Shown here: positions 19,140 to 58,897 of the stretch, piece after piece | How positions within the stretch are numbered: the first letter of the stretch is position 1 | Layout: each line of letters opens with the position of its first letter | Source of the DNA: Gammaproteobacteria bacterium | GTDB lineage: Bacteria; Pseudomonadota; Gammaproteobacteria; Xanthomonadales; SZUA-36 | Direction: 5' to 3' | Assembly (NCBI GenBank): GCA_021772935.1 | Contig: JAJFLA010000056.1 | Coordinates: forward strand, 124,001 to 188,000 | DNA length: 64,000 bases | Program-made: the position numbers and the translations under genes | Notes under the pieces: generated by a model | Database searches by the model: none | Told to the model about the DNA's origin: nothing | What the model saw: only the letters and a program-made list of their open reading frames with translations

Positions 19140-19145
19140 ATTCTC

Positions 19146-42632: not shown

Positions 42633-43274
42633 ATGAATGAAGGCCGCCTGCAACGAATACCGCCACATTTGGCGCCCCAAAAAGGGGAGATTCGCTTATT
42701 TAAAAACAAATTACTGGAGCGACTCAGCCGGATTTCACCACAAACGGTACTGGCGGTTTACCTTCCGATTATAGTGTTTTCTGTTTGGAAAAGTTTTGCG
42801 ATAGGTGTAAGTCCTCTGGTTTTCGGAGTTTTATTTTTGTCCGGTGTTATCTTTTGGACCTTGCTTGAGTTTGTCCTGCATCGCTATGCATTTCACTTTT
42901 TTCCGGTTGGAGATTTTCAGGTGCGTGTGCAGTTCCTGTTCCATGGAGTACACCACCAATACCCGAATGATAAGGATCGATTGGTGATGCCGGTGACTTT
43001 GAGTCTGCTGATCACCGCGTTACTGTTTTTACTATTTAGCGTAATTTTTGGAGAATTTGTTTGGGGTTTCTTTGTTGGGGTCACCTTGGGTTACCTGGCT
43101 TATGACATGACACACTACAGTATTCACCATATACGGGCACCGCGGAACGTTTACCTTAAAAGGCTTTGGAAGCACCACATGGACCACCACTACAGAGATA
43201 CCAATAAAGCTTATGGTGTATCTTCAGCGCTTTGGGATCATGTGTTTGGTACAATGCAAACGCAAAAAAAGTGA
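42633..43274 (+). CDS. Fatty acid / ceramide 2-hydroxylase (FA2H/Scs7 type)
   Basis: A 213-residue membrane di-iron enzyme of the fatty acid hydroxylase superfamily. The histidine boxes are LHRYAFHF, HGVHHQYPNDKDRLVMP, HYSIHH and HHMDHHYRD. The HGxHHxxPxDxxRLVMP string is that of eukaryotic FA2H/Scs7, which 2-hydroxylates the N-acyl chain of ceramides, rather than of carotenoid hydroxylases. Hydrophobic segments flank the boxes. From the ATG at 42633 the N-terminus is soluble and lacks the cytochrome b5 domain of the yeast enzyme. Placed at the head of a ceramide synthesis cluster, it probably hydroxylates ceramide or its acyl donor; sphinganine C4-hydroxylation is an alternative. Confidence 0.82.
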   Translation: MNEGRLQRIPPHLAPQKGEIRLFKNKLLERLSRISPQTVLAVYLPIIVFSVWKSFAIGVSPLVFGVLFLSGVIFWTLLEFVLHRYAFHFFPVGDFQVRVQFLFHGVHHQYPNDKDRLVMPVTLSLLITALLFLLFSVIFGEFVWGFFVGVTLGYLAYDMTHYSIHHIRAPRNVYLKRLWKHHMDHHYRDTNKAYGVSSALWDHVFGTMQTQKK

Positions 43275-43669
43275 CAGGGAATAGGTCGTGTGTCAGGTAT
43301 TTTGTTAGAATCGGGTCTATAACCAAAATTAAACGGTAATTTAATAATGAAGAACTAGCCCAAAAAATACTTGGGTTGGGTATAATTCGACATTATGATG
43401 TGAAGCTTGCATTGATCAAACAATTGCTGAGTTTGTTATCAATACGGTACCATTATTTAATAAGGGTGCAGAAAAAAGCAGGATGATTTACATTTAATTA
43501 ACGATTTTATAAGTTAAATCTGCGAAAATTGGTTTGATAAACGCAGGTGGGGAAGGCTTGGCTTGAATATTTTAATCAGACCTGATGCCATAACTTTAAA
43601 TTTAGAGGCCTACTTAGTGGTACTTAAATACTCTTTATTGAGTGCAAATTTCACAATGGTGTGTTGATC
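43275..43669 (+). other. AT-rich spacer before the acyl-ligase operon
   Basis: This 395-bp region, distinctly AT-richer than its neighbours, has no credible coding frame. It contains TATAAT at 43381-43386 without a well-placed -35, and an imperfect dyad built on TTGATC...GTTATCAA (about 43413-43442). It presumably holds the promoter and regulation of the ligase-reductase-ACP-SPT operon. Confidence 0.4.
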
Positions 43670-45436
43670 ATGAATCATATGAAACCAACTCCTGCCAACA
43701 CATCTTTGTCGGTAAAAATTACCCCGTACACCAATCTGGTGGATGCGCTTGAGTATGCGGCACAAGGTGATACCGGGTTTAACTTTTACGATGGCCGAGG
43801 TCACTTGTCTGCCGTTTTGCCATACTCGGAACTGCGTGACGAAGCCAAAGTGATTGCGCGCAAGTTACTTAGTCTTGGCTGTGAGCGCGGTGCACGGGTT
43901 GGAATTATTGCTGAAACAGAACCCATGTTTCACAGATTCTTTTTCGCCTGTCAGTACGCTGGTTTAATCCCCATTGCTTTACCGGCAGGAATACAACTGG
44001 GTGCCCATGGTGCTTATGTAAGTCAGGTTCGGCGCATGTTAAAAAGTTGTAGTGCCTCAATCGTGGTTGCGCCAGAGACACATGCAAACTTTATGACTGA
44101 AGCGGTTCAGGGTCTTGATTTGCTCATGGCCGGAACACAACAGGACTACGATGCTTTGCCAGAGGCTGATGTGGAATTTGTGCCTTTGGGTGCAGATGAT
44201 CCGGCCTATCTGCAATACACATCTGGCAGCACCAGTTTTCCGCGGGGTGTTGAAGTTACGCAAAAAACAGTATTGAACAACCTGATGGAAATCGCCCGTT
44301 ATGGGCTGAAGCTTGATTCCAATGACCGGTTTGTCTCCTGGTTGCCCTTTTACCATGATATGGGTCTTGTTGGGTTTGTGTTGGTTCCGCTGATTGGCCA
44401 GTTATCCGTGGACTATCTTGGTTCACGTACCTTTGCCATGAGGCCGAGATTGTGGCTGAAAATACTTTCAGATAATGGCGGTACAATTTCTTCCGCACCC
44501 ACATTTGGCTATGCTTTGTGTGCCAAGCGCCTTCGACCTTCCGATGTTGAAAATTATGATCTCAGTAATTGGCGGGCAGCCTGCGTAGGTGCCGAACGTA
44601 TTAATCCAGAGCCACTAAAGTTATTCGCCGACATACTTAAACCTAGCGGCTTTGATGAACGTGCATTTGTCGCCTGTTATGGTATGGCTGAATGTGTCCT
44701 GGCCACCAGTTTCGCGCCCTTGGGCGAGGGTCTGAATGTTGACGTGGTGGACAGAAAGCTGATGGCGATTACGGGTGAGGCCAGACCAACAGACTCAGAT
44801 TCTGTATCAGCCTCGTCTTATGTTGATTGTGGCAAACTCTTGCCAGGCTTTGAGTTTTCGATCCTGGATGATGACGGCAATGAACTTGAGGATCGTCACT
44901 GCGGCCACATACACCTCAAAGGCCCCAGCGTGATGCGTGGGTATTACAAAGATGAAGAATCCACGCGAAAAGTTTTATCGCTGGATGGTTGGTTAAATAC
45001 AGGTGATATTGGCTATCGGATTGGTCAACATGTGGTCATCACATCACGTAGCAAAGATGTCATTATCATCAAAGGGCGAAATATCTGGCCCTACGATCTC
45101 GAAGTACTGGCTGAAAAGACCTGTGGCGTCAAACACGGAGGTGTTGCTGCGTTCTCGGTCACTGATGAGCGTCAGGAGGAACAGGCAGTGATGGTGGTCG
45201 AGACCCGTGAAAAAGACACTGATAAACGTCAGCACATTGTTGAAGACATAAGTCGTTCCATCCATGCCTATTTTGGGATCAACGCACTTATTGACCTGAC
45301 CCCACGGGGAACATTGCCGAGAACCTCTTCCGGCAAACTATCCAGAACCCAGTCCAAGCAGGACTTTCTCGCACGCAAGACCTTGCAGGGTGTAGAAGAA
45401 TCAATGACGAGGGTTGCAAATAAGCAGCCTGCCTGA
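43670..45436 (+). CDS. aasR: Acyl-AMP ligase / acyl-ACP synthetase (AasR-like)
   Basis: A 588-residue adenylate-forming enzyme of the fatty acyl-AMP ligase group. The AMP-binding P-loop is YTSGSTSFPRG at 183-193, followed by WLPFYHDMGLVGF, typical of FAAL proteins. The C-terminal part has LNTGDIGY and the hinge region KDVIIIKGRNIWPYDLE. FAALs load acyl chains onto carrier proteins rather than CoA. In Caulobacter the equivalent gene activates fatty acids for the dedicated ACP used in sphingolipid synthesis; here reductase, ACP and SPT genes follow directly. The ATG at 43670 is preferred over an upstream GTG at 43661. Confidence 0.88.
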   Translation: MNHMKPTPANTSLSVKITPYTNLVDALEYAAQGDTGFNFYDGRGHLSAVLPYSELRDEAKVIARKLLSLGCERGARVGIIAETEPMFHRFFFACQYAGLIPIALPAGIQLGAHGAYVSQVRRMLKSCSASIVVAPETHANFMTEAVQGLDLLMAGTQQDYDALPEADVEFVPLGADDPAYLQYTSGSTSFPRGVEVTQKTVLNNLMEIARYGLKLDSNDRFVSWLPFYHDMGLVGFVLVPLIGQLSVDYLGSRTFAMRPRLWLKILSDNGGTISSAPTFGYALCAKRLRPSDVENYDLSNWRAACVGAERINPEPLKLFADILKPSGFDERAFVACYGMAECVLATSFAPLGEGLNVDVVDRKLMAITGEARPTDSDSVSASSYVDCGKLLPGFEFSILDDDGNELEDRHCGHIHLKGPSVMRGYYKDEESTRKVLSLDGWLNTGDIGYRIGQHVVITSRSKDVIIIKGRNIWPYDLEVLAEKTCGVKHGGVAAFSVTDERQEEQAVMVVETREKDTDKRQHIVEDISRSIHAYFGINALIDLTPRGTLPRTSSGKLSRTQSKQDFLARKTLQGVEESMTRVANKQPA

Positions 45437-46366
45437 GTGCAGACAGACTCATCATCGGTCTTTATTACAGGGGCAACTGGCTTCATTGGTCAGCGATTGG
45501 TGTCCTGTCTTCTCGAGCAGGGTCATGCCGTTCGAGCAATGGTTCGTCCTGAAAAAAAAAGTAGTAGCCAGATCCCATTAGCCTGTGAGCAGATTCCGGT
45601 TGGCCTGACGGATGTAGACAAGCTGACCGGTATCGTTGCTGAATCCAAAGCGGTCATTTATTGCGCGGGTAGTGTCAGGGGCCGTAACCTGACAGATTTT
45701 TCTGTCGCTAACATCCAGGGTATACAGGCGTTGATTGATGCGTCTGAGCGTGCCTCAAACGCTCCGCCATTATTGCTGGTGTCCTCACTGGCGGCAAGCC
45801 AGCCACAACTATCCGATTATGCACGAAGCAAAAATGCAGGTGAGCAATTACTACTGGGTAAGCCGTTATTACCGTGGACGATAATCCGCCCACCCGCTGT
45901 TTACGGTCCAGGTGACCAGGATATGTTGCGGGTTTTAAAAATGGTACGCCGGGGCTTGCTCCTACATGCCGGTCCACGTGATCAACATGTATCATTGTTA
46001 CATGTCGATGATCTGGCCAGTGCAGTTGTTGCCTGGTTATTAGCGTCGCAATGTTGTCGTCACAAAACCTATGCCATAGATGATGGAACACCGGGTGGAT
46101 ACACTTGGGATGCCATCGGAGAAGCGGTCAGCAAAAAAAAATTACGGGCCTTGAAATTGCCTCGTCTCTCGATGGACATTGTAGCAACAGCTAACGTGTT
46201 GTTTTCAAAGCTGTTAGGATATGCACCCATGTTTTCGCCAGGTAAAGTCCGGGAGCTCATACAACCGGAGTGGTTGTGTGACAACAGTAGTTTTACAGAT
46301 GCAACCGGTTGGAAGCCACAGTTGGATTTAAAGCAGGGTGCGGAGCGGCTATTCAAACCAGATTAA
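45437..46366 (+). CDS. cerR: Extended SDR reductase, probable ceramide reductase (CerR-like)
   Basis: A 309-residue NAD(P)-dependent epimerase/dehydratase-family protein with the Rossmann motif GATGFIG (12-18) and the catalytic Y128-x-x-x-K132 (DYARSKNAG), preceded by the SS pair at 116-117. The start is a GTG directly after the ligase stop. In Caulobacter a homologue in the same gene neighbourhood reduces the 3-keto group of the long-chain base, apparently after N-acylation. No signal peptide is visible here, so a cytoplasmic location is predicted from sequence, whereas work on Caulobacter placed its enzyme in the periplasm. The assignment rests on family and context. Confidence 0.82.
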   Translation: MQTDSSSVFITGATGFIGQRLVSCLLEQGHAVRAMVRPEKKSSSQIPLACEQIPVGLTDVDKLTGIVAESKAVIYCAGSVRGRNLTDFSVANIQGIQALIDASERASNAPPLLLVSSLAASQPQLSDYARSKNAGEQLLLGKPLLPWTIIRPPAVYGPGDQDMLRVLKMVRRGLLLHAGPRDQHVSLLHVDDLASAVVAWLLASQCCRHKTYAIDDGTPGGYTWDAIGEAVSKKKLRALKLPRLSMDIVATANVLFSKLLGYAPMFSPGKVRELIQPEWLCDNSSFTDATGWKPQLDLKQGAERLFKPD

Positions 46367-46468
46367 TAGATAGCTTGTCTACCTGATAGTTATGCAAATT
46401 TAACGCATGATCATCCATCGTGCGCTACAATCCCCAATTTCTACAGCCATAGTCCGGCGGAGATTTAA

Positions 46469-46741
46469 TTGAATAATTCGACTGACGTAGTGAGCGAAAA
46501 GCTTGCCGAAATACTGACTGAATACCTTAAGACAAACTGGGCGAACTCGCCGTCAAGTAACCGTACCGTTACCGCTACCACCAACATGGTGACAGAATTG
46601 CAACTAGACTCCTTTCAGGTCATGGAGTTTATGCTGGAAGTGGAGGATCATTACGATGTTGCTATTGATCTTGACAGCCTGTCAAATATTCAGAGTATCA
46701 CTGATCTTGCGGGTGTTGTTATCACCGCACACCAGGATTAG
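46469..46741 (+). CDS. acpR: Dedicated acyl carrier protein (AcpR-like)
   Basis: A 90-residue acyl carrier protein with the phosphopantetheine serine S48 in ELQLDSFQVMEF and the helix-2/3 pattern of the family. The start is TTG at 46469, with GGAG eight bases upstream; the first downstream ATG (residue 40) would destroy the domain. It lies only 6 bp before the SPT-like gene and downstream of an acyl ligase, so it most likely carries the acyl chain delivered to SPT, as with the separate ACP in Caulobacter and Sphingobacterium-type systems. Confidence 0.9.
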   Translation: MNNSTDVVSEKLAEILTEYLKTNWANSPSSNRTVTATTNMVTELQLDSFQVMEFMLEVEDHYDVAIDLDSLSNIQSITDLAGVVITAHQD

Positions 46742-46747
46742 CCAGGT

Positions 46748-47917
46748 ATGTCACTTCTAGATAAGTTTATAGGTGCCAAACAGCTAAAATCGGGCTTGGA
46801 AAACGCTGGTAAGGACCCTACAAATGTAGTGTTTGATTCTATCAACTCAGCTACAGAAGGGGTTGTAGATGGGCGAGTAACCATACTCGCAGGCACCAAC
46901 AATTATCTTGGTCTGACATTCAACCCGGATTGTGTTGCCGCAGGTGTTTCGGCGCTGAAATCAGATGGTACTGGCACCACGGGTTCACGCATGGCAAATG
47001 GCAGTTATGCAACACATGGTGCCCTGGAAGCGGAGTTGGCGGATTTCTTTCAGTGTGATCAGGCCATGGTATTTTCAACCGGTTATGCCGCTAATCTTGG
47101 AGTGTTGTCTGCATTACTGGGGAAAGGTGATGCAGTACTGTTGGACTCTGATGCCCACGCCAGCCTCTACGATGGTTGTCGAATGAGCGAGGCCGATGTG
47201 TTTCGCTTCAAGCACAACGATATGCAGAGCCTGGAAAAACGACTGACACGTTTGGGTGATCGCGCCAGTCGTTGCCTGATTGTCATTGAAGGCATGTACA
47301 GTGTATTGGGAGATTGTGCACCGTTGGCTGAGGTTGTGGCGCTCAAGGAGCGTTTTGGTGCCCATTTGCTGGTCGACGAAGCACATTCCCTCGGTGTTTT
47401 TGGTCCACGAGGTTGTGGTGTGGCCGAAGAGCAGGGCGTGTTGGACAAAGTTGACTTTATCGTGGGCACTTTCAGCAAAAGTCTGGGTGCAATGGGTGGG
47501 TTCTGTGCCAGCCAACACGATGTGCTGGGGCTGTTCCGCTACGTTTCCAGACCTTTTATGTTTACCGCTTCACCTAGTCCGTCAGTTATTGCAACAACCC
47601 GGGAAGCATTACGGCAATTACGCACCCGGCCTGAATTGAAAGAAACGCTGTGGTCAAATGCAAGACAACTTTATACCGGTCTGCAGGATTTGGGTTTTGA
47701 GCTTGGACCACAGCTTAGCCCCGTCATTGCTGTTCGTTGTCAGGACAGAGAATCAGCACTTTTCAACTGGAATCAGCTATTGCAGGCTGGTGTGTATGTC
47801 AACATGATGCTGCCGCCGGCGACACCGGGTGGTGCCTGCTTTTTGCGTTGTAGCATCGGTGCGGCGCATACCGCTGAACAAATCAGCACTATCATCGAAA
47901 AGTTTGCAGAATTGTAG
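46748..47917 (+). CDS. spt: Serine palmitoyltransferase (alpha-oxoamine synthase family)
   Basis: A 389-residue PLP enzyme of the alpha-oxoamine synthase family that condenses an amino acid with an acyl thioester. The PLP lysine is K244 in GTFSKSLGAMGG. VDEAHS (D210) and DSDAHASLYDG (H137) line the cofactor pocket, and TGSRMANGSYATHGALE binds substrate. Relatives include BioF, Kbl and HemA. The ACP, acyl ligase and reductase upstream and the ceramide-synthase-like GNAT gene downstream argue for SPT, which makes 3-ketosphinganine from serine. No bio or tdh genes are near. It ends 21 bp from a convergent flippase gene. Confidence 0.88.
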   Translation: MSLLDKFIGAKQLKSGLENAGKDPTNVVFDSINSATEGVVDGRVTILAGTNNYLGLTFNPDCVAAGVSALKSDGTGTTGSRMANGSYATHGALEAELADFFQCDQAMVFSTGYAANLGVLSALLGKGDAVLLDSDAHASLYDGCRMSEADVFRFKHNDMQSLEKRLTRLGDRASRCLIVIEGMYSVLGDCAPLAEVVALKERFGAHLLVDEAHSLGVFGPRGCGVAEEQGVLDKVDFIVGTFSKSLGAMGGFCASQHDVLGLFRYVSRPFMFTASPSPSVIATTREALRQLRTRPELKETLWSNARQLYTGLQDLGFELGPQLSPVIAVRCQDRESALFNWNQLLQAGVYVNMMLPPATPGGACFLRCSIGAAHTAEQISTIIEKFAEL

Positions 47918-47939
47918 CGTGGGCATGAAGTGCCCGTGT
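47917..47939. terminator. Small hairpin between convergent spt and flippase genes
   Basis: GGGCA-TGAAG-TGCCC forms a short stem in the 21-bp gap. It may serve as a weak bidirectional terminator; there is no strong T-run on the plus strand beyond GTTATTTATTT. Confidence 0.45.
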
Positions 47940-49216
47940 TATTTATTTCGCACCAGCCGCAGCATTAATAGAAGTGTCAATAAAGTGCCTGAGCTGGCGG
48001 CAACCCCTGGTCCCAGCAAGCCCATAGACGGTATTAGTACATAGAATAAACTCAGGTAAATCAATACGCTCAGCAGATAGATACGCAGCACCTGAGCTAC
48101 CTTGCCCATGGCATAGGCGGTAGCGCGCAATGGGGAGCCTGCCAGTTCAAATGTTGCTGCAAGCAGCATCAGGGTCAGGAGTGGTGCTGCTTCACTGTAT
48201 TCAGGTCCGATAATACCGAGTATCGGACCGGCTGCGGGAATTGAAAGTAAAACCAATAGTAGTCCGGCGGCCCCCGCCACTTTAACCGCACGAAAGGCCA
48301 ACTCATGGAATCCCTCTGCGTTGCTATGTAATATTCGGGCCAGGTCTGGGAACAATACTTCGTTAAGCATCATAGCCGGTTTACTCAATACACTTGAAAA
48401 ATCACGCGCCAGTCGGAACATACCGGCGGCGGCCGGCCCCAGCATACTGCCAGCAAGCAGAACAACAAGGTGTTTTGGCACTAAATCGATGTTGGTCTGC
48501 CAGTAAACCACTGCGATAAAGTGGCGAAATTCCTTGCTGGTTTTCCGAGTTTCCTGCCAGTTTCCACCTTGCCAGATGTGACTCTTGTGGTGCCGTTTGA
48601 ATTCTACATGGCCTCGAATCATTAACCAGACGTTATCCAGCACAAAAGCTGCGGCCCAGATGGCAACAAAAACAACCATGCCAGCGTCCACTGCCCAGGC
48701 AATGGCGACACCTGTGATGCGAATAGCTGGACCAACTATGTAGAAAACACTAAGCGCATCAAAGCGATCATATAAGCGCAATATGCCATTAGGTGTGTTG
48801 CTAGCGGTGCTCAACATGACCAGGCTATACAGACCCGTTAGTGAAATCATCTGTGCATCCCAGTGCAAAAAACCACCCGCCACTGTGGCTGCTGCCATAC
48901 CTACTAAAGTGGCTGCAATCGACGATGCCACATCGATCAGGGTGGTGGTTCGGAACAGCTGTTTCAGCCCTTTATTTTCACCATTTTCATGTAGTGGAAC
49001 GCCAAACCGTACGATGGCCTCGTAGGTTCTGAAGTTCAGAAAACCCCGCACCGCCAGCACGTATGTGTGTAACAGGATTACAAGACCAAACTCAGTGACG
49101 GGCAAGGCATGGGCCATCAGCGCTGTCGCTGCCAGCGTGAAGACCGCGGCGATACCTCGTCCTCGAAGTACAACCCCAAAATTTTTCAAAACCCGCCCAG
49201 AGGTATTTTTTTTCAC
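47939..49216 (-). CDS. Wzx-like polysaccharide/lipid flippase (MOP superfamily)
   Basis: From a GTG at 49216 that overlaps the upstream TAG by one base, the protein has 425 residues with about twelve hydrophobic segments, beginning VLKNFGVVLRGRGIAAVFTL. It resembles the polysaccharide_synt / Wzx group of the MOP superfamily, which flips lipid-linked substrates across the inner membrane. A longer TTG-initiated form to 49249 is possible. It is the last gene of a five-gene minus-strand set (lptF, lptG, CDP-alcohol transferase, nucleotidyltransferase, flippase). Inference: it flips a sphingolipid or its headgroup intermediate. Confidence 0.75.
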   Translation of the reverse strand: MKKNTSGRVLKNFGVVLRGRGIAAVFTLAATALMAHALPVTEFGLVILLHTYVLAVRGFLNFRTYEAIVRFGVPLHENGENKGLKQLFRTTTLIDVASSIAATLVGMAAATVAGGFLHWDAQMISLTGLYSLVMLSTASNTPNGILRLYDRFDALSVFYIVGPAIRITGVAIAWAVDAGMVVFVAIWAAAFVLDNVWLMIRGHVEFKRHHKSHIWQGGNWQETRKTSKEFRHFIAVVYWQTNIDLVPKHLVVLLAGSMLGPAAAGMFRLARDFSSVLSKPAMMLNEVLFPDLARILHSNAEGFHELAFRAVKVAGAAGLLLVLLSIPAAGPILGIIGPEYSEAAPLLTLMLLAATFELAGSPLRATAYAMGKVAQVLRIYLLSVLIYLSLFYVLIPSMGLLGPGVAASSGTLLTLLLMLRLVRNK

Positions 49217-50187
49217 TAGCGAAATGCACCCTGACGATAAAGTTTCCAAATCAAAGGCCAGGCAAAAATCAGGGGATGTTTAAGTTGCCGTGTGCTTGGT
49301 TCGATATAAATTCCGGAGTGCCGTTCAATTTTCCATAATAGGTATTCCATGGGTTCGTTAAACGTGAACGCCGCCTTGAACAAACGCAACATTGATAGCA
49401 GCTTGCCTTGCACGCGGCGCAGCCACCAGGTCAATGAAGAGGTTTTTCTGGAAAAACCACTGCTCTGGTTGCAGAACATACCATCGGCTTCTAACTTCAA
49501 AAGCGCTGGGTTTTTCTGGGCAAAAGAGTTCGTGACGCTGTCATAATATGCAGGTTCAAACTCATATATTGACTCGCCGCGGTTACTGTTTTCCGTACGC
49601 AGTTCACATTGATAGGTTAACGACAAACCACGTGTCCATAATTCCCTGCTGCTGAATTTGTCTTCCATGGCAGGTAGGGCACGTCGTAAAAACGTGGCTG
49701 AAGCGCTTTTGAATGCGTTTGTTAAAACGGCCTGTACTGTTTCATCGCGTACATACAGGACTTCACAGGGTTGTGCAAAACGCGCCCAAAAATAGGAATG
49801 AAAATCGTGTTGCATTGCGTCGCAAAATCGGCTCAGACTTAATAAGGCATATTTGGCACGCACGGCAAAGCTCTGATCGTCTGCAGCTTCTGTCTTATGG
49901 TGAATATGGTAAACGTTGGGTGGCAACAGCCTGCACATCCATCCTTGCCAGGCTGAATCAAGTGTTTGGTAATCATCCACCAGTACATAAAAGTCCAGCA
50001 TGGTATCGCGCTTACCACGTAGCCAGGAGCCATAGACCAGTATGGCCTGCATTGTGTCACCATGTTTGCGCCTGATTTCCTCAAGTAAAAGCTCAAGACT
50101 TACATCTTCCACCGATTCTTGCGGTGGAAATCTACTCTGATGGATATTGGGTGTCACCAGTTTATGCGTTTCATCACTGCCTTCCAT
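49216..50187 (-). CDS. Nucleotidyltransferase-fold protein
   Basis: A 323-residue protein from the ATG at 50187, overlapping the upstream CDP-alcohol transferase gene by 14 bp. Around residues 45-70 it has the pol-beta/NT-fold signature YGSWLRGKRDTMLDFYVLVDD, with GS and two acidic positions. The rest (a helical C-terminal part of about 200 residues) is not a family I recognise. Longer forms start at 50229 or 50247. It could transfer a nucleotide to a headgroup precursor or be a regulatory pseudo-enzyme; its place between a CDP-alcohol phosphotransferase and a flippase points to headgroup chemistry. Confidence 0.6.
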   Translation of the reverse strand: MEGSDETHKLVTPNIHQSRFPPQESVEDVSLELLLEEIRRKHGDTMQAILVYGSWLRGKRDTMLDFYVLVDDYQTLDSAWQGWMCRLLPPNVYHIHHKTEAADDQSFAVRAKYALLSLSRFCDAMQHDFHSYFWARFAQPCEVLYVRDETVQAVLTNAFKSASATFLRRALPAMEDKFSSRELWTRGLSLTYQCELRTENSNRGESIYEFEPAYYDSVTNSFAQKNPALLKLEADGMFCNQSSGFSRKTSSLTWWLRRVQGKLLSMLRLFKAAFTFNEPMEYLLWKIERHSGIYIEPSTRQLKHPLIFAWPLIWKLYRQGAFR

Positions 50188-51394: not shown

Positions 51395-51427
51395 GTTATA
51401 TTTCGTCTCGGATTAAACAGTGACTTT

Positions 51428-52501
51428 CTATAATGTTCGTCGGCGAATTGCGAATATGGCTATCGCCAGTAAAATGAAAGGTGGGGTCAGGATAACCAGC
51501 GATGGGTTCAGACCCAAAATACCCGCCAGGTGACCACTTAACTGTTGCAACAAGTAAAAACCGATGCCAACTAATCCACCCGTCATGGCCCGCTGGCTGG
51601 CAGATACTGATCGGACTGAGCCCAACAGAAATGGCAAAGACAACAAAGCCATGGCCAGTAAACCGGGTAGCAGGCTGATCTGCTGCCATAGCACGACTTC
51701 ATACTGGTGGGTGTCAAGCTCATTTTTGTTCAGGTTTGATATTGTTTCAATCAGGTCATTTGGTGCCAATGCTTCGAGTGGCAAGATCAGTACTGCAGCT
51801 TGTTCAGCCGAAAGCAAAGCATTCCACTGCATGTTATCCCGTTTTGTTTCAGTCACCTGTGCATCCTGAAACCTGCTTTCCAAGACGTTAATCAACACCC
51901 AGTTTTCCCGCCCGGTATAAAACGCACTGGACGCTTGAATCAATTGTGTCAAGCGGCCTTGCTCATCGGTCGAGTAAATCTCAATACCAGCCAATGTACG
52001 GTCAGACTGTACATTGTCAACGCGGATAAAATGCTTGTCATTTCGGGTCCAGAATGCGCGTGATTCGCCTGTACCTGTTTCGGTGTTTTGCAATGCCTGT
52101 CCACGTAACCATGCCGCCTCACGTTCGAACCCAGGGACAACTGTGAACTGTAGAATTGTAATAAATATGCCCAGAAAAACAGCCAAACCAGCAACTGTTT
52201 GTGCGATGCGTTGTTTGGATATACCACTGGTACGTATAGCGATCAGTTCACGATGATTGGCCATTGCGCCCAGCCCAAATAAACCACCTAAAAGCGTGGT
52301 AACCGGTAGCAACTCTACGATTCGTTTGGGTGTGGTCAAAATAACCACTAACATGGCATCAGGCAGGGTAAAGCTACCCTTGCCGACATCTTCCAACTCT
52401 TCGGCCAACGCCATGAAGCTGAATAACGCTAATAATAACAGCAGCGCCGGGAATATCCCGGCCAGGAATCGCTGCATGATATAGCGATCAATCTTGAGCA
52501 C
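51428..52501 (-). CDS. lptG: LptG-like permease
   Basis: A 357-residue protein of the YjgP/YjgQ (LptF/LptG) family. It starts with MLKIDRYIMQRFLAGIFPAL from a GTG at 52501 (14-bp overlap with lptF), then three membrane helices, a periplasmic beta-jellyroll (about 130-265), and three more helices ending in FAIRRRTL. The coupling-helix region HRELIAIRTSGIS matches the family. LptG with LptF and the ATPase LptB extracts LPS from the inner membrane. Here the pair lies inside a sphingolipid locus and away from pepA, its usual neighbour. It may be a second, sphingolipid-directed copy or simply the only copy relocated. Confidence 0.88.
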   Translation of the reverse strand: MLKIDRYIMQRFLAGIFPALLLLLALFSFMALAEELEDVGKGSFTLPDAMLVVILTTPKRIVELLPVTTLLGGLFGLGAMANHRELIAIRTSGISKQRIAQTVAGLAVFLGIFITILQFTVVPGFEREAAWLRGQALQNTETGTGESRAFWTRNDKHFIRVDNVQSDRTLAGIEIYSTDEQGRLTQLIQASSAFYTGRENWVLINVLESRFQDAQVTETKRDNMQWNALLSAEQAAVLILPLEALAPNDLIETISNLNKNELDTHQYEVVLWQQISLLPGLLAMALLSLPFLLGSVRSVSASQRAMTGGLVGIGFYLLQQLSGHLAGILGLNPSLVILTPPFILLAIAIFAIRRRTL

Positions 52502-53573
52502 GTCGGTCCTTCCTCAATTTGAGTGTTGCGGGTATGTACAAGCCCGCAACCACCAGCGAGAGTAGGCCGGGGACCCACCATATGTAAGCACTACTGCCTT
52601 GTTCAACCCAGCTGCGGCTAACATCCAGCAGGAAGAAATAAACAGAATAAATTACCAGTGCCAACAGCATCTTTGCATAACGCCCCTGCCGGGGACGGCT
52701 GCGACTCAGTGGGATGGCTGCCAATGCTAGCAACAAGGCAGAAACAGGTGTTGACAAGCGCCATTGAAATTCTGCCTGGCCAGTTGGGTCGGAGGACTGC
52801 CATAGATTTTTTGTGGTAGCGGATTTGACCTTGTAACCCGGTGGTTTTGGAGTTTCAGCCGGCAACCAAAGTGTGAATGTGTCGAATTGTGCCGAAAAGT
52901 CCGTGCCATCTTGCACTTTTCTCAAGACACGCGCGTCTGTCAACTGTAAGCGGTGAAGCATGGGCTTGAAAAGATATTCAAAAACCCCTTTGGTGGCAGT
53001 AATTACCTGCAGATCACGGTCTTTTCTCGTGCGAACAAAAATACCATCCAGATCACTGCCGTTTTCAGCGATTTTATCTATAAAAACAGTCCGCCTACTG
53101 TCACCAAAAGTATAGAACCTCGCTGCCCGTATCCGCCCTGTTTCGGCGCTGGCCTCAGCGTTTGCCTTGACCTGGTACGATTGTGCGTAAGCCCAAGGCC
53201 GCGCCCAGGTAGACAGCACGGTCACCACCACGGCCAGTACCAGTGCCAGACGCATGAGTGGGCGCAACAGGCGAGCTTCACTGATGCCACTGGCGCGCAT
53301 GGCATAGATTTCAGAATCGGTATAGAGACGGCCAAGACCGGTCATAACGGCCAGGAACAAACTGAGTGGCAAAAGAGTGTCCAGTGAAATGATGGATTTG
53401 AGTAAAGTTAGTCGTGCGACTTCACTGGCTTGCAAAAGCCCCGCATCCGCATCCACCAGGAAGCGGCTAAGGCTGAAGGTAATGAAAATAACCACAAGCG
53501 CTATGAAAATACCCAGCAATGGGTGCAGTACTTCTCTGAGTAGGTAATGATCGATAATGTTTTTTGTGGGCAT
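52488..53573 (-). CDS. lptF: LptF-like permease
   Basis: A 361-residue LptF-family permease: DHYLLREVLHPLLGIFIAL at the start, six membrane helices in two groups of three around a periplasmic beta-jellyroll, LYTDSEIYAMRASGIS as coupling helix, and SRSRPRQGRYAKMLLAL before the last helices, as in canonical LptF. It is the first gene of the minus-strand set and divergent from an LptA-fold gene 99 bp away. LptFG needs the ATPase LptB, which is not in this window. ptsN-rapZ at the right edge suggests that the usual lptCAB genes lie close by, outside. Confidence 0.88.
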   Translation of the reverse strand: MPTKNIIDHYLLREVLHPLLGIFIALVVIFITFSLSRFLVDADAGLLQASEVARLTLLKSIISLDTLLPLSLFLAVMTGLGRLYTDSEIYAMRASGISEARLLRPLMRLALVLAVVVTVLSTWARPWAYAQSYQVKANAEASAETGRIRAARFYTFGDSRRTVFIDKIAENGSDLDGIFVRTRKDRDLQVITATKGVFEYLFKPMLHRLQLTDARVLRKVQDGTDFSAQFDTFTLWLPAETPKPPGYKVKSATTKNLWQSSDPTGQAEFQWRLSTPVSALLLALAAIPLSRSRPRQGRYAKMLLALVIYSVYFFLLDVSRSWVEQGSSAYIWWVPGLLSLVVAGLYIPATLKLRKDRRAQD

Positions 53574-53607
53574 TTGTGTGGTGATTTGTGTGTGTTAGGG
53601 TTTTTCT

Positions 53608-53639: not shown

Positions 53640-53672
53640 CAGTTAGCTTGAAGGTCAAATCCAGTAATAAGT

Positions 53673-54164
53673 ATGAAAAAAACAGTTATATGTAGTTTAT
53701 TGACATTAATAGTCTCCCCTTGTCATGCAACACCATTAGGAGAGGGTGCTTTTGATACCATCAGTATAAGCGCGGATGAGGCCCGTGAGGATGAACTGCC
53801 AGGAATTCTTCATTTTCAAGGACATTTTTTGATGCGAAGTGATGACTGGCAATTGACGTCTGCGCGGGCAACGGTTTATGGCAGACCCAACCGACCGGAT
53901 GAGGTTTACCTGGAAGGTTCACCAGCCCGTTTCCTGATCAGTCAGACACATAATACCCAACAGGGTCCGGTTGAGGCTGTTGCGTCGGTTGTCGAGTATT
54001 TGCGTGCTGTTAACAAGTTGAAGTTATCCGGTGGTGCCACATTGACGTTGGATAAAGAGGTTATTCGGAGTACATATATTGAGTACGACATCAATACCAA
54101 CCGCTATCATGCAGGCGGTATTGATGGTGTTCTGATCGAAGTTCAACCGGACAATATGTTTTAG
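53673..54164 (+). CDS. LptA/OstA-fold periplasmic bridge-like protein
   Basis: A 163-residue exported protein: signal peptide cut after SPCHA (about residue 19), then an OstA/LptA-type beta-jellyroll (about 28-160) with ISISADEARED, LHFQGHFLMRSDDWQLTSARATVYG, VEYLRAVNKLKLSGGATLTLD and IEYDINTNRYHAGG. Canonical LptA bridges inner and outer membranes for LPS. The canonical lptA is normally beside lptB and rpoN, so this copy is probably a paralogue. Its divergent pairing with lptF suggests that it completes an Lpt-like path for the lipid made by this locus. It ends 1 bp from the convergent nucleotidyltransferase gene. Confidence 0.85.
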   Translation: MKKTVICSLLTLIVSPCHATPLGEGAFDTISISADEAREDELPGILHFQGHFLMRSDDWQLTSARATVYGRPNRPDEVYLEGSPARFLISQTHNTQQGPVEAVASVVEYLRAVNKLKLSGGATLTLDKEVIRSTYIEYDINTNRYHAGGIDGVLIEVQPDNMF

Positions 54165-54165
54165 C

Positions 54166-54894
54166 TTATCGTGACCATCGCTCGACGACATCCGCCGCAG
54201 CTGCAAAATCTGCAGCATCATCGACTTCGCACCAACTCATACCATTTATCGGACAGATTCCAGCGATACCTTCACTGGCAAGCTGGTCGATGGCAGACAG
54301 GTACCACAGCTTGAGTGCATCTGACTTGTCCATCATTTCTTCGAGTTTCTGTGTGAATGCATGTGCACCGGTTTCATTAAATACCATCAGACCAATGCTT
54401 TCCCCGCTGACGAGGCTGATATCCAATTGCTTGCTGACTTTTAGTAGCCTGTCACCATCGGCAATAATCTTCATATCATCAAGGTCAAAATAGGATTTGG
54501 TGTCGGTGGCAAGTGTAATGCCATAACTGTTGTCACAAGCAAGCAAGCGTTGCAGAATGGCGGCTTCGAATAAGGTATCCCCATTCATCAGCACAAACGG
54601 CCCATCCATTTCAAAACGTGCTTCCCAACAAGTACCGAGGTTGTCGGTGTGAGCATACATTGGGTTATGTAATGTTCGTACCTTGATGCCGCTAACCTTG
54701 TTTACGATCGTATCGACCATTTCACTTGCAAAACCAGACACGACCACGACTTCATCTATGTCGCATTGTGCGATCTGGCCTAATTGCCATTCAAGAATTG
54801 AGATTCCATGAAGGGGCAAACAGCACTTGGCCATGTTTGATGTCAATGGCATCAGCCGACGACCCTGGCCTGCGCTAAGTATGATTGCTTTCAA
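54166..54894 (-). CDS. Sugar/alcohol-phosphate nucleotidyltransferase, CTP-type likely
   Basis: A 242-residue NTP_transferase with AIILSAGQGRRLMPLT at the N-terminus (nucleotide-binding loop), K23 of MAKCCLPL, and MNGDTLFE (metal-binding aspartate). Size and motifs resemble CTP-dependent enzymes such as LicC phosphocholine cytidylyltransferase and inositol-1-phosphate cytidylyltransferases. The start is a TTG at 54894 with AGGAA upstream. Beside a CDP-alcohol phosphotransferase, it is the natural source of the CDP-activated headgroup. Substrate unknown. It is monocistronic, convergent with the LptA-like gene and divergent from the GMC oxidoreductase. Confidence 0.8.
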   Translation of the reverse strand: MKAIILSAGQGRRLMPLTSNMAKCCLPLHGISILEWQLGQIAQCDIDEVVVVSGFASEMVDTIVNKVSGIKVRTLHNPMYAHTDNLGTCWEARFEMDGPFVLMNGDTLFEAAILQRLLACDNSYGITLATDTKSYFDLDDMKIIADGDRLLKVSKQLDISLVSGESIGLMVFNETGAHAFTQKLEEMMDKSDALKLWYLSAIDQLASEGIAGICPINGMSWCEVDDAADFAAAADVVERWSR

Positions 54895-54969
54895 ACAGGT
54901 TCCTTACGAGAAAAGTGCTGCATTAGAACATGAATTCGTTAATCTGCAAAATGCATTATTGATACAATT

Positions 54970-54984
54970 AAGTGCACAGCACTT
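54970..54984. promoter_or_regulatory. Short dyad in the divergent nucleotidyltransferase/GMC interval
   Basis: AAGTGC-ACA-GCACTT, a perfect 6-bp dyad, lies midway in the 168-bp divergent interval and could be an operator for both genes. No regulator gene is adjacent, so this rests on symmetry alone. Confidence 0.35.
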
Positions 54985-55062
54985 GATAAGTACACAGAGT
55001 TTGGAATTTTTGCTGCCTACCCTGTGACAGGAGTCTTAGCAGACAGACGACGGATTAGGAAT

Positions 55063-56670
55063 ATGTTAATAGATCTTGAACAGACCACTGATGACATTTT
55101 GCTGGGTGCGGAAGTCTGTATTGTTGGTGCAGGAGCAGCGGGTGTTGCGCTTGCACGGGATTTGATGCACGCAGGGCGTGACGTGTGTCTGCTGGAAGGT
55201 GGTGGGATGGATTATGAAGAACACACCCAGTCATTATTCGATGGCAATAATATCGGCATGGAATATTATGATCTTGACCATGCCAGGTTACGTTTTTTTG
55301 GAGGGACAACTAATATCTGGGGCGGGCGCAGTGTTCCGTTGGACCCGATTGATTTTGAAAAACGTGAATGGGTACCTCATAGCGGATGGCCGATCACACT
55401 TGATGACTTGCAGAATTATTACCGCATTGCTCATGATTCATTGGAACTGGGTGAGTTTGAGTATGAGGCCGGAATTTGGGAAAAACTTCAGCTAAGTCCT
55501 ATCGATTTTGATCCTGAAGAAATAGCCACGCGTTTCTGGCGGTTCGATGACCTTGCAGAACGCTTTAACAGCCGACGAAGTGATGACCTGATTAAATCGG
55601 CAAATGTACGCGTTGTACTGCATGCAAACACTGTCGGACTCCAGGCAGTCGAAAACGCATCGGGTATCACACATTTGAATGCAAAATCCCTGTCAGGCAG
55701 GAAATTAAAAGTCCAGTCCCATCACTTTGTGCTTGCCTGTGGCGCGATTGAAAATGCTCGCTTGTTATTGGCATCCAATAATGTGGAAGCCAATGGGATT
55801 GGTAACCAGCATGATCAGTTGGGTCGCTATTTCATGGAACACCCGCACGGTAGAATTGCCCATATTGATACACAGGATCCCGCAGCTTTCTGGGCGTTGT
55901 ATCGCAAGCGCTATCCGGTAGCGGGCGTGCCACTCGCCCCGGCGCTGGTGTTGCCGCCCTCTTTGCAGCAGCGATTGGGTATTCTTAATAGCGCAGCTAC
56001 CTTTAAATTACAGAAAGATCCGAGCAATGGCGCGACCATGAGTAAACGGGTATATCTAAACTTGAAACACAGTTTGTCGCCCTCGAAATCTGGTCGCCGT
56101 CTTTGGCAGACCTGGCGAGGCACTCAGGACTGGTTACAGCGGCATGTCTCCATGCCATTATTACGTTTTGGTGTGAAAGTTAACCGAATGGGTCTTTATG
56201 TGATTGCCCGCGCTGAGCAGGCCCCAAATCCTGATAGCCGCGTGTGCTTGTCAAAGAAGAAGGATGCATTGGGAAGCCCCAAGGCTGATCTCGATTGGCG
56301 TCTCAGCGCACTGGACAAGGAAACCATGCTGCAATTTGGCAAAACGCTGCAACGCGAGTTTGATCGGCTTGGCTTGGGTAAAGTGACAACCTCCCCATGG
56401 TTAGAGGACGGTCAACCCGAATGGCCGGTCGATGCGAGCGTAGGCAATCATCCGATTGGTGGTTACCACCATATGGGCACGACCCGTATGAGCGCGTCAG
56501 CCAAGAACGGTGTGGTGGACGCCAATTGTACGATACACGGATATCACAACCTACACATCGCTGGAAGTTCTGTATTTACTACCGGGGGGTGGGCCAATCC
56601 TACTTTGACCTTGCTGGCGTTGACGCATCGGCTCGGTGATCACTTGAATATCTTGTTGGACAGGCAGTAA
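55063..56670 (+). CDS. GMC-family FAD-dependent oxidoreductase
   Basis: A 535-residue flavoprotein. FAD-binding GAGAAG at residues 22-27, the GMC substrate domain (FFGGTTNIWGGRSVPLDP), and the C-terminal GMC signature with catalytic histidine in YHHMGTTRMS and the second site GGWANPTLTLLALTHRLGDHL. GMC enzymes oxidise alcohols such as choline, sugars or sterols. The ATG at 55063 with AGGA upstream is preferred over a frame to 55024. In this locus it might oxidise a headgroup alcohol or a lipid hydroxyl; there is no direct evidence for either. Confidence 0.85.
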   Translation: MLIDLEQTTDDILLGAEVCIVGAGAAGVALARDLMHAGRDVCLLEGGGMDYEEHTQSLFDGNNIGMEYYDLDHARLRFFGGTTNIWGGRSVPLDPIDFEKREWVPHSGWPITLDDLQNYYRIAHDSLELGEFEYEAGIWEKLQLSPIDFDPEEIATRFWRFDDLAERFNSRRSDDLIKSANVRVVLHANTVGLQAVENASGITHLNAKSLSGRKLKVQSHHFVLACGAIENARLLLASNNVEANGIGNQHDQLGRYFMEHPHGRIAHIDTQDPAAFWALYRKRYPVAGVPLAPALVLPPSLQQRLGILNSAATFKLQKDPSNGATMSKRVYLNLKHSLSPSKSGRRLWQTWRGTQDWLQRHVSMPLLRFGVKVNRMGLYVIARAEQAPNPDSRVCLSKKKDALGSPKADLDWRLSALDKETMLQFGKTLQREFDRLGLGKVTTSPWLEDGQPEWPVDASVGNHPIGGYHHMGTTRMSASAKNGVVDANCTIHGYHNLHIAGSSVFTTGGWANPTLTLLALTHRLGDHLNILLDRQ

Positions 56671-56836
56671 TAAAAGGCAAAACGAGACTAATTCAGAGGC
56701 GCTCCGGGTAAATCACCAGACCAGTTTCCGATGGCCCAGGCCAGCCTCTCGACCAGTTCCTGGTCTCACCTTCTCCGTGTGCTCTATTGCGAAATAGGTG
56801 TAACACTGACACGATCGCATCGCACGTCCCTGTGCT
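56671..56836. other. Repeat-filled gap between convergent GMC and nucleotidyltransferase-like genes
   Basis: This 166-bp gap holds a REP-like two-hairpin repeat (56724-56776) and the first of two copies of TGTGCTCTATTGCGA (56778-56792; the second at 56831-56845 overlaps the next gene's stop). No gene fits. Confidence 0.6.
56724..56776. repeat. REP-like repeat with two hairpins (intergenic copy)
   Basis: The unit contains TGGCC-CA-GGCCA and GACCAG-TTC-CTGGTC as adjacent hairpins. A second copy lies in the coding region at 60736-60790. There the second hairpin is GACCGG-TTC-CCGGTC: both arms changed together, so the structure is kept by compensatory substitutions. Confidence 0.8.
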
Positions 56837-57736
56837 CTATTGCGATATACCGTCCGTCCTGGACATAATTTTTTCTGCTAATTGCTGGTCTTCGATGGAA
56901 TCAACGTCCACGGCAGCCCTGGCAAAATCCAATTGCACATAGCCAATTCGGCAACCTGCAGCCGTTGAAAATGACCGAAGCACCTGTTCAAACGTTACGC
57001 GTCTGAACAGGTAACGCAAGAGAGCCATGGGACCGAAGCGACGCGCAATTCGCCAAGGGTGTTTGCGATCAGCTTCTGCCTGACGCCAGAAAACGAGTGC
57101 CTTCCGACCTTCTGGGCTGAGAATGGCGCAGAGGTTACTACCACAGAAATGTCCATCTGAAAATTTTAGTACCGTGCGTTTGTTTTCCGGCCAGGCCGCG
57201 TGAACCAGCGCGTGTGGGACAAAGCCCATGACAAGATCGTAGTTTGAATCGTTCACGGAAGAGGGGAGGGGACGGGCATCGATCGAGAGGCTGCCAGGGT
57301 CTACTGACAGCTGGTCGGGAGGCTGGTCTGGGGTATGCGAAAACGCTTGTGTGCAGAAGTCATCCACGATTTCGCCAGTTAACAAGGCATGGTCACCGGC
57401 TGTCAGCAGAGTCGGGTAATGATCCAGTTTCTCCAATGCCGCCAATGCACTATTGGTGGGCCCGAGGTCTGGCGCCAGCCACTCAAAAGCCCGGTGTTGT
57501 AGAAGATTTTTTAAACCTGGGTTGTTTGCAACGACATCAGCCGATGGCCCACAAATGATACCGCCACCCACCAAGCGACTATCTGTAATCGCCTGCATCA
57601 CATGTGCGAGTGCTGGTTTACCAGCAACAGGAACCATCACACTTGCTGTGATATTGAAGGCGTGGCTTAGTGCGCTGCCGCCTGGGCGTTCACCCGCGAG
57701 TATGATTGAGCGGTATTTAGCCGATTGCTCGATCAT
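56837..57736 (-). CDS. MobA-like nucleotidyltransferase-fold protein, altered signature
   Basis: A 299-residue protein with the shape of an NTP transferase: SIILAGERPGGS replaces the usual LAGGxGxRM loop, followed by MVPVAGKPALAHVMQAI (K of the signature kept) and LLTAGDHALLTGE, where GDH sits at the metal-binding position. The C-terminal 100 residues carry a hydrophobic stretch around LLRYLFRRVTFEQVLRSFS. The altered loop leaves catalysis uncertain. It lies 15 bp downstream of the ceramide-synthase-like gene in one operon, so it probably acts on sphingolipid precursors or headgroups. I do not know the substrate. Confidence 0.65.
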   Translation of the reverse strand: MIEQSAKYRSIILAGERPGGSALSHAFNITASVMVPVAGKPALAHVMQAITDSRLVGGGIICGPSADVVANNPGLKNLLQHRAFEWLAPDLGPTNSALAALEKLDHYPTLLTAGDHALLTGEIVDDFCTQAFSHTPDQPPDQLSVDPGSLSIDARPLPSSVNDSNYDLVMGFVPHALVHAAWPENKRTVLKFSDGHFCGSNLCAILSPEGRKALVFWRQAEADRKHPWRIARRFGPMALLRYLFRRVTFEQVLRSFSTAAGCRIGYVQLDFARAAVDVDSIEDQQLAEKIMSRTDGISQ

Positions 57737-57751
57737 GTCGGAGTAGAAGGT

Positions 57752-58897
57752 TTAAATGTCTTTGTCATACATTCGGTAACGTTTCGTAACCTCGCCACCG
57801 ACACTTTCAATGATATTTCTAGTGGCATGGTTATGCTCTAGTACCCAGGACATTTCAACACGCTCAAGACCTTTGGATGTACCGGCGTCCATTGCAGCCT
57901 TGATAACCATATAGGCCAGTGCCGGGCCGAAGCGGGTGTTCTGATATTTCTGCCGGACACCCATCAATGCCACCCGGGCTGTTTTGGGGGAAGCAACCTT
58001 CAGACGCCAAAACAATTTGGCCCAGCCGAATGGTAGCAGACGGCCATTCAAGTCTGCGATGGCTTCATTGATATTGGGTAGCAGGACAACAAAAGAAGCG
58101 GCTTGACCATCGATTTCAGCAATTTGGATAAAATCCTTGGGCAGCAACATCAATAATTCCTTGCCGATCACACTGAATTCTTCACGCGTAAACGGTACAT
58201 AGTTCCAATTGTTCTGCCAGGCGTCATTGAAAATGTCCCGCATCAATTCAAGCTCATTGGTCTTTTCGTTGCGATCCAGGCAACGGACCTTAACGCGGTT
58301 AGCGCTTCTTGTGATGAGTGCCTGCATAACCCTGGGTATGGTGAGCATGTGGTTGTCCAACTCATAGGCCAGCAAATCTTGTGCTGGCTGGTAGCCACAA
58401 CGCTCAATCGCGGCGCCGTAGTAGTTTGGTGAATGAGCCATCATGACGTAAGGCGGGGTATCAAAACCATCGACCAGGATGCCGAGTTCCTGATTGATGC
58501 CGAGGCTGAAAGGGCCTAAGGCCTTTCGCATACCCTTGGCCCGCAACCAATACTCAGCAGTATCAAACAATGCTTTGAAAACAGCATCATCATCTGGGGC
58601 TTCAATTAAGCCGAAAAACCCGATCTTGTTATCGTATCGTTGCTGGTGTAAATGATCGATTTGTGCCGAAATGCGCCCGACTGGCTTGCCGTCCCTGTAA
58701 GCTGTCCATGCCTGCCAGTCAGCGTGCATGAAATATGGGTGTTTGTGTGAAAAAGCTTCTCTGCGTTCGGCAAGCAGCGGTGGCACCCAGTTTGGATCAT
58801 CCTGGTAAATGCCCCAGGGTACCCGAATAAACGTATCTAAGGCCTGCTTTCCGGAAACCTCTCTGATTTCAACTGCTGTGTCAGAAAAACTATTCAT
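57752..58897 (-). CDS. bcerS: GNAT-fold N-acyltransferase, probable bacterial ceramide synthase (bCerS)
   Basis: A 381-residue protein with a GNAT fold in its second half. It starts with a region containing VPWGIYQDDPNWVPPLLAERREAF, then KALGPFSLGINQELGILVDGFDTPP, and ends GLERVEMSWVLEHNHATRNIIESVGGEVTKRYRMY, where GNAT proteins bind the acyl donor. It is unlike eukaryotic TLC-type ceramide synthases. The Caulobacter ceramide synthase is of this GNAT type and size and is likewise encoded a few genes away from spt. The reaction would be N-acylation of 3-ketosphinganine. Together with spt, acpR, aasR and cerR it completes the set. Confidence 0.8.
   Translation of the reverse strand: MNSFSDTAVEIREVSGKQALDTFIRVPWGIYQDDPNWVPPLLAERREAFSHKHPYFMHADWQAWTAYRDGKPVGRISAQIDHLHQQRYDNKIGFFGLIEAPDDDAVFKALFDTAEYWLRAKGMRKALGPFSLGINQELGILVDGFDTPPYVMMAHSPNYYGAAIERCGYQPAQDLLAYELDNHMLTIPRVMQALITRSANRVKVRCLDRNEKTNELELMRDIFNDAWQNNWNYVPFTREEFSVIGKELLMLLPKDFIQIAEIDGQAASFVVLLPNINEAIADLNGRLLPFGWAKLFWRLKVASPKTARVALMGVRQKYQNTRFGPALAYMVIKAAMDAGTSKGLERVEMSWVLEHNHATRNIIESVGGEVTKRYRMYDKDI

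Follow-up and report, generated by a model that had tools for sequence, protein, structure and literature searches.

A candidate Caulobacter-type phosphosphingolipid locus with a family-level variation in a gammaproteobacterium

Introduction

Does the gene cluster at positions 42633-58897 of a gammaproteobacterial contig encode ceramide synthesis alone, or a complete route to an exported phosphosphingolipid? The cluster lies in a 64,000-nt stretch of contig JAJFLA010000056.1 (positions 124,001 to 188,000; hereafter the window) from a member of the Xanthomonadales lineage SZUA-36. An initial annotation, made from the letters only, described it as a ceramide locus headed by an FA2H-type hydroxylase. 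Open reading frames (ORFs) and family models place the five ceramide genes and the hydroxylase where that annotation had put them, but it overlooked the head-group and export genes lying between spt, the gene for serine palmitoyltransferase (SPT), and bcerS, the gene for the ceramide synthase bCerS. The ORF list resolves 15 genes (Table 1). We read them, with a probability of roughly 0.85, as a Caulobacter-type phosphosphingolipid locus whose sequences and fold models predict ceramide synthesis, head-group assembly and export. The analysis draws on gene families, two predicted folds, conserved gene order and co-occurrence, from which we infer every reaction, product and transport step.

The source assembly (GCA_021772935.1; 3.96 Mb, 56 contigs, 98% complete) has as its nearest named relatives genomes assembled from metagenomes, which were deposited under the names Xanthomonadales, Lysobacterales and Oceanospirillales or simply as Gammaproteobacteria. 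A kinship sample of 61 genomes (the source genome and 60 relatives) was divided into 20 SPT-positive and 41 SPT-negative genomes; the positive set combines 18 genomes above the SPT model cut-off with G001 and G009, whose partial matches fall below it and in which acpR and cerR adjoin the SPT gene. A class-wide sample of 369 evenly drawn gammaproteobacterial genomes, the source genome included, contained 24 genomes with SPT matches at E<=1e-100. From the 23 others we fetched 20 regions belonging to 14 other gammaproteobacterial families, omitting G065, G209 and G243; 18 of the 20 exceed the cut-off. In the presence table, which covers regions of 10.9 to 20 kb, each ORF was assigned to its best query at BLAST E 1e-4, and absence from it is no proof. 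A further comparison used 13 alphaproteobacterial loci, several of them too short to judge gene presence, among which Hyphomonad-type loci served as a stand-in for the C. crescentus proteins.

Table 1 Genes of the cluster in window coordinates, with the evidence for each assignment (model scores in bits, vs cut-off where available).
Feature	Coordinates	Strand	Basis
FA2H/Scs7-type fatty acid hydroxylase, 213 aa	42633..43274	+	PF04116 67.3 vs 31
AasR-type acyl-AcpR synthetase (fatty acyl-AMP ligase family)	43670..45436	+	NF006624, AMP-binding
CerR-type extended SDR, predicted keto-sphingoid/keto-ceramide reductase	45437..46366	+	PF01370 75.4 vs 20.9
AcpR, dedicated acyl carrier protein	46469..46741	+	PF00550 30.8 vs 20.8
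Spt, serine palmitoyltransferase	46748..47917	+	NF047599, PDB relatives, tree, catalytic residues
MATE/Wzx-like flippase candidate	47939..49249	-	PF01554 17.3, below cut-off 24.9
P0008, Tam41-fold nucleotidyltransferase (CC_1161/CpgC-type), candidate CDP-ceramide synthase	49216..50247	-	Predicted fold
P0009, CDP-alcohol phosphotransferase with cytidylyltransferase-like N-domain	50174..51394	-	PF01066 42.4 vs 22
LptG2, second LptG-type permease	51428..52501	-	PF03739 220.3
LptF2, second LptF-type permease	52488..53573	-	PF03739 224
LptA-like periplasmic protein	53673..54164	+	PF03968 38.3 vs 20.4
CpgD-like cytidylyltransferase, predicted CDP-activated head-group maker	54166..54894	-	PDB relatives, residues
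GMC oxidoreductase, family-specific cluster member	55024..56670	+	PF05199 82.4 vs 24.6
CC_1153-like nucleotidyltransferase	56837..57736	-	PF12804 27.9 vs 27
bCerS, GNAT-type ceramide synthase	57752..58897	-	GNAT family model, alpha-locus homology, co-occurrence

Results

The ceramide genes

The window SPT scores 597.9 bits against the curated SPT model NF047599 (cut-off 500) and remains below the cut-offs of the models for BioF (326.6 vs 426.45), glycine C-acetyltransferase (311.7 vs 460) and CAI-1-type synthase. In a Protein Data Bank (PDB) sequence search, Sphingomonas-type SPTs rank first (E 1.3e-123, 415.8 bits), followed at a distance by Kbl (220 bits), cysteate fatty acyltransferase (194.8), BioF (187) and CAI-1 synthase (134). 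The protein carries H137, D210, H213, K244 and R367, among them the pyridoxal phosphate lysine, the stacking histidine and the conserved arginine; the column of S. paucimobilis arginine 378 is occupied by leucine and is variable in other cluster SPTs too. We placed the SPT in a 43-row tree, built quickly and without bootstrap, with some long branches and with six BioF/Kbl rows that do not together make up one side of a branch. There it lies within a 29-row group of alpha- and gammaproteobacterial cluster SPTs (Shimodaira-Hasegawa-like approximate likelihood ratio test, SH-aLRT, 100), in which the SPTs of its family form a group of their own (SH-aLRT 99). Kbl (TIGR01822, 680 vs 493) and BioF (TIGR00858, 473.6 vs 426.45) of the same genome are separate genes that fall outside the 29-row group, and we rejected the reading of the SPT as a BioF/Kbl paralogue.

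Membership of a family that also includes cysteate fatty acyltransferase and CAI-1 synthase might suggest that the enzyme makes another alpha-oxoamine, such as a capnine-type sulfonolipid, a quorum signal or a secondary metabolite. Given the much higher score of the Sphingomonas-type SPTs, the passing of the SPT model but not of its competitors, and the company of bCerS and CerR, we regard this as very improbable. Divergent SPT-like genes were seen elsewhere, at L144 and L149 (genomes G285 and G169 of family f121; 41% identity, under the SPT cut-off). A CDP-alcohol phosphotransferase-like gene lies near each, AasR, AcpR and bCerS were not detected within the region, and their product is perhaps another oxoamine lipid.

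Upstream of spt, aasR, cerR and acpR are read from the same strand, with successive gaps of 0, 102 and 6 bases along the four genes. AasR passes the fatty acyl-AMP ligase model (706.8 vs 600) and is 80-82% identical to its counterparts in L001 and L003-L005 and 37-41% identical to AasR of the alphaproteobacterial loci. AcpR begins with TTG and contains a D47-S48-F49 motif; its gene adjoins spt in 18 of the 20 other gammaproteobacterial regions and in all 13 alphaproteobacterial loci, and a CerR homologue does so in 17 of 20 and 8 of 13, respectively. The bCerS protein has no solved relative better than E 0.25 and is 35-38% identical to the protein at the bcerS position, which was found in eight of the 13 alphaproteobacterial loci. 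It was detected in 14 of the 20 other gammaproteobacterial regions, one match being weak (24% identity). In the kinship sample, bCerS is present in 19 of 20 SPT-positive genomes (the exception being G029, which is 77% complete) and in none of the 41 SPT-negative ones.

Gene order across the cluster is conserved in close relatives at about 52-86% identity, and this conservation, together with the co-occurrence of SPT and bCerS, argues that the cluster is not a chance assembly. The Fisher values for co-occurrence (6.7e-15, 2.0e-6 and 2.4e-11) overstate independence because the relatives are themselves mutually related. The ceramide pathway proposed in the initial annotation is upheld by the placement of SPT apart from BioF and Kbl, the homology of the GNAT protein to its alphaproteobacterial counterparts and the recurrence of the gene set in related genomes. 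From these sequence comparisons, ceramide synthesis by the cluster is very likely.

Head-group and export genes

The gene encoding P0008, whose true start may lie near 50187, yielded a structural model from 17 sequences (predicted local distance difference test, pLDDT, 74.6; residues 1-48 unreliable). The model matches bacterial Tam41 with cytidine triphosphate (CTP; 7ecd, Z 18.6, root-mean-square deviation (rmsd) 3.6, 228 aligned) and mitochondrial Tam41 (Z 14.1 and 13.6), the next non-Tam41 row following at 9.6; Foldseek gives E 4.5e-9 to 6ig2. Sequence search returned no solved relative. YGS and MLDF residues are invariant in 17 aligned homologues, and homologues with 31-35% identity adjoin spt in nine of the 13 alphaproteobacterial loci. 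Tam41, a CDP-diacylglycerol synthase, shares the fold of P0008 but only 16% identity, and its acceptor is phosphatidic acid, whereas that predicted for P0008 is ceramide-1-phosphate. For CC_1161, the Caulobacter counterpart, PMC11324152 mentions a suspected CDP-diacylglycerol-synthase-like activity.

P0009 contains the full CDP-alcohol phosphotransferase motif, DTVDGKLARVTIQSSKFGHLFDHAID, at residue 227. Its model (12 sequences, pLDDT 77.4; the L004 row was taken from an upstream start and has extra N-terminal residues) adopts the two-domain AF2299 architecture (4o6m, Z 20.4, rmsd 4.4, 314 aligned), with an N-domain that, read by eye, is without the usual CTP-binding motif. The CpgD-like protein finds PntC-AEPT (3e-11), LicC (9.1e-10) and 4jd0 (1.6e-5) among PDB entries and has R12/R13, K23 and D106 as candidate active-site residues. 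The CC_1153-like protein is 28-32% identical to the product of the gene following bcerS in alphaproteobacterial loci.

Export candidates are interleaved with these genes. The LptF2, LptG2, phosphotransferase, Tam41-like and flippase ORFs form one minus-strand run, overlapping or 33 bases apart. The genome has four PF03739 genes, two of them inside the cluster: LptF2 is 31% identical to the first gene product of the housekeeping LptF/LptG pair (G000:C52:58280-60423), and the nearest relative of LptG2 within the genome is the second (28%). PF03968 likewise matches two genes of the genome, the LptA-like gene of the cluster and another at C52:191338-191661. The flippase candidate is 26-28% identical to proteins of the alphaproteobacterial loci, six of which (L010 at 18012-20516, L011, L015, L016, L018 and L023) fuse flippase-like and CDP-alcohol phosphotransferase parts in one protein of 827-837 aa; this fusion speaks for a functional connection between the two genes, which are separate in the window.

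If the organism made only ceramide or glycosylated ceramide, the Tam41-like, CDP-alcohol and Lpt genes would instead serve an unusual phospholipid or part of the lipopolysaccharide (LPS). Such an arrangement would fit the failure to find a ceramide kinase, the loci L137 and L139, which show the five ceramide genes and an LptF/LptG pair without a detectable head-group gene, and the two-domain glycosyltransferase gene (58971-61469) that adjoins bcerS in eight of ten same-genus genomes. Nevertheless, spt and bcerS enclose the head-group and Lpt genes, in an unchanged order, in those family clusters that could be read through, and homologues of these genes recur beside spt in alphaproteobacterial loci, while the glycosyltransferase gene does not adjoin bcerS in G007, G014, G015 and G033. 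We therefore consider a ceramide-only product unlikely and, from the gene content, the formation and export of a phosphosphingolipid likely. The glycosyltransferase is not kept throughout the family and was rejected as a core part; in G007 mgtE directly follows instead, and in G008 the contig ends. Elsewhere in the window, a 1668 aa ORF (31337-36343) contains group-1 (two stretches) and family-2 glycosyltransferase domains, and Rfam and tRNA scans of the window gave no match.

Ceramide phosphorylation and distribution of the gene set

Several observations weigh against a phosphosphingolipid locus of this type. The Tam41 family model PF09139 matches P0008 below its cut-off (18.1 vs 24 bits, E 0.0018), and the CpgD-like assignment is that of a candidate, based on superfamily membership and three residues. 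Across the 20 regions of other gammaproteobacterial families, CpgD-like genes were found in eight, Tam41-like (CpgC-like) genes in five and CDP-alcohol phosphotransferase genes in four; BLAST at E 1e-4 detected neither the flippase candidate nor the LptA-like gene in any of them. These low counts suggest that, for part of the set, the association with SPT is largely confined to the window's family; LptF/LptG-like genes occur in 15 of the same 20 regions. Finally, the CpgB-type kinase of L010 has no match in the source genome up to E 10, in a search that lacked a positive control, and the sole DAGK_cat protein of the genome is encoded on another contig (C41).

For 11 family genomes, too, the fetched regions (partial in three cases) yielded no CpgB-type kinase. 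CpgB-like kinases occur in four of the 20 other gammaproteobacterial regions and nine of the 13 alphaproteobacterial loci; G054, which belongs to a different family of the same taxonomic order, has one in its cluster, although the BLAST presence table missed it. Two candidates for a dedicated ceramide kinase were rejected. The C41 DAGK_cat protein gives no match with the L010 kinase in BLAST at E 1e-3 and a weak profile match (26.7 bits), and its family is found in many SPT-negative genomes and is missing from SPT-positive ones such as G020 and G030. DgkA (PF01219) occurs in 51 of the 61 genomes regardless of SPT and is missing in the SPT-positive G001, G008 and G054; the Caulobacter control genome gave no DgkA match. 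As a non-dedicated source of ceramide-1-phosphate, DgkA is possible. E. coli DgkA phosphorylates ceramide, for which our literature search found no supporting paper.

The head group might also be attached without ceramide-1-phosphate, if P0009 moved phospho-X from CDP-X directly onto ceramide, as cholinephosphotransferase does with diacylglycerol. A candidate CDP-X synthase is present in the cluster, CPT1 and CEPT1 are further structural matches of the P0009 core (Z 11.8 and 10.2), and the lack of a detected cluster kinase in the family would be explained. Direct transfer would, however, leave the Tam41-like enzyme without a role, and this enzyme is kept in ten of the 11 family genomes (in G020 it was not seen in two fetched contigs); AF2299 and DIPPS (Z about 20) are moreover nearer matches to P0009 than CPT1 is. 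We find this route doubtful and favour a CDP-ceramide intermediate.

The GMC oxidoreductase sets the family apart. A close orthologue (>=65% identity) is present in 16 of 20 SPT-positive and none of 41 SPT-negative genomes, distant homologues in eight genomes, five of them SPT-negative (30-48%, E down to 1.8e-62), being left uncounted as orthologues, and the gene was found in none of the 20 regions from other families. A metallophosphoesterase gene belongs to the cluster in eight of the 11 family genomes and was not found in the window locus or the G003 locus (loci only).

The FA2H/Scs7-type hydroxylase

The hydroxylase ORF starts with ATG at 42633, where the aligned L004 protein also begins. 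A PDB search matched it to two yeast Scs7 entries (E 1.4e-32), in an alignment that includes the core and the histidine motifs, and to nothing else up to E 1. The cytochrome b5 domain is part of Scs7/FA2H; the window protein, at 213 aa and in a bacterial cluster, differs in being without it. At E<=1e-60 the hydroxylase was found in ten of 20 SPT-positive and none of 41 SPT-negative genomes, weak matches in G018 (SPT-negative, 1.9e-12) and G054 (SPT-positive, 4.7e-11) being left uncounted, and it was present in three of the 20 regions from other gammaproteobacterial families. The hydroxylase heads the locus, as initially annotated, in the window and in G003 (L004), but in no other cluster examined; the remaining family members have it elsewhere or lack it.

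The hydroxylase gene shares its contig with additional bCerS-like genes in G001 and G030 and with the sole bCerS found in G011. These shared contigs and their neighbouring genes fit a link between the hydroxylase and N-acylation, and 2-hydroxylation of the ceramide N-acyl chain is its function as predicted from sequence. For Caulobacter, PMC11324152 reports a different, DesA-type enzyme for the amide-linked chain. The bCerS-like genes near FA2H-like genes in G030 and G011 lie at L119 (1366-6045), L120 (6208-9082) and L126 (5114-9159), comprising two additional copies in G030 and the only copy found in G011. Judged by eye, their neighbours resemble desaturase, methyltransferase and ketoacyl-synthase genes, and each group may be an N-acylation module that uses acyl chains of its own. 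G+C content at 42001-44000, which covers the hydroxylase and the gap before aasR, is 0.439, vs about 0.47-0.52 elsewhere in the window.

Discussion

In the pathway that we propose, AasR would charge AcpR with a fatty acid, which SPT would join to serine. N-acylation by bCerS and reduction by CerR, steps whose order is disputed in print, would give dihydroceramide, and the FA2H-type enzyme would place a 2-hydroxyl on its N-acyl chain. Following phosphorylation by some kinase, the Tam41-fold enzyme would form CDP-ceramide, and the CDP-alcohol phosphotransferase, together with the CpgD-like and CC_1153-like enzymes, would assemble a phosphate-linked head group; in Caulobacter this group is based on glycerate. 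Transport of the lipid to the outer membrane would then fall to the flippase candidate and to LptF2, LptG2 and the LptA-like protein. A more specific version, which we put forward tentatively and as a minority possibility, is a rebuilt Caulobacter pathway that has dropped the dedicated kinase, relying on a different kinase, for example DgkA, or dispensing with ceramide-1-phosphate. Its GMC oxidoreductase might oxidise a head-group alcohol or the activated precursor of that alcohol, giving a 2-hydroxylated phosphosphingolipid with an undescribed head group, exported by LptA2-LptF2-LptG2.

The closest known system is C. crescentus CC_1168-CC_1152, which serves ceramide phosphoglycerate (CPG/CPG2) synthesis; the likeness was judged through PMC11324152 and the Hyphomonad-type loci rather than letter by letter. 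Both clusters have aasR-cerR-acpR-spt, bcerS next to a CC_1153-like gene, and CpgC-like, CDP-alcohol phosphotransferase, CpgD-like, LptF2/LptG2 and flippase-candidate genes. The window cluster differs in its gene order, in the lack of a detected CpgB kinase and in its GMC oxidoreductase, FA2H-type hydroxylase and LptA-like genes. By published description, A. vinelandii, P. luteola and E. coli BL21 have the same five ceramide genes.

The initial annotation had considered sphingolipids unusual for LPS-producing gammaproteobacteria. The lpxC gene that it noted in the same window is confirmed (1658-2611, PF03331, E 1.9e-107), but neither the supposed rarity nor the oddity of the pairing holds. Ceramide genes have been published for E. 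coli BL21 (PMC9386255), and for Azotobacter vinelandii and Pseudomonas luteola clusters are described in which a single region also holds head-group and Lpt genes (PMC11324152); 21 of the 369 sampled genomes, the source genome included, have an SPT above the cut-off, and C. crescentus makes both LPS and sphingolipids. The five genes, CpgD and a sphingolipid potential in many phyla are likewise on record (PMC9386255, PMC11324152, PMC11087976, PMC12275187, PMC11334938), and Caulobacter genetics exist for the matching genes (PMC11324152, PMC12275187). Since the five genes, their gammaproteobacterial presence and the head-group and Lpt genes have already been published, the cluster belongs to a known kind. 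What looks new is its family-level twist: no detected CpgB-type kinase, an added GMC oxidoreductase and an Scs7/FA2H-like hydroxylase. We did not find this combination in the open-licence literature, where the GMC-directed part of the search shows little, nor an open-licence paper joining CDP-ceramide, sphingolipid and bacteria.

In conclusion, the lineage represented by the window very likely joins the gammaproteobacteria that produce sphingolipids as well as LPS. The Scs7-like hydroxylase of this bacterial sphingolipid cluster clearly qualifies as a candidate enzyme for 2-hydroxy ceramide formation, and the locus as a whole offers a compact, contiguous gene set for studying the role of the Tam41-like enzyme, ceramide phosphorylation without CpgB and sphingolipid export by duplicated Lpt parts.

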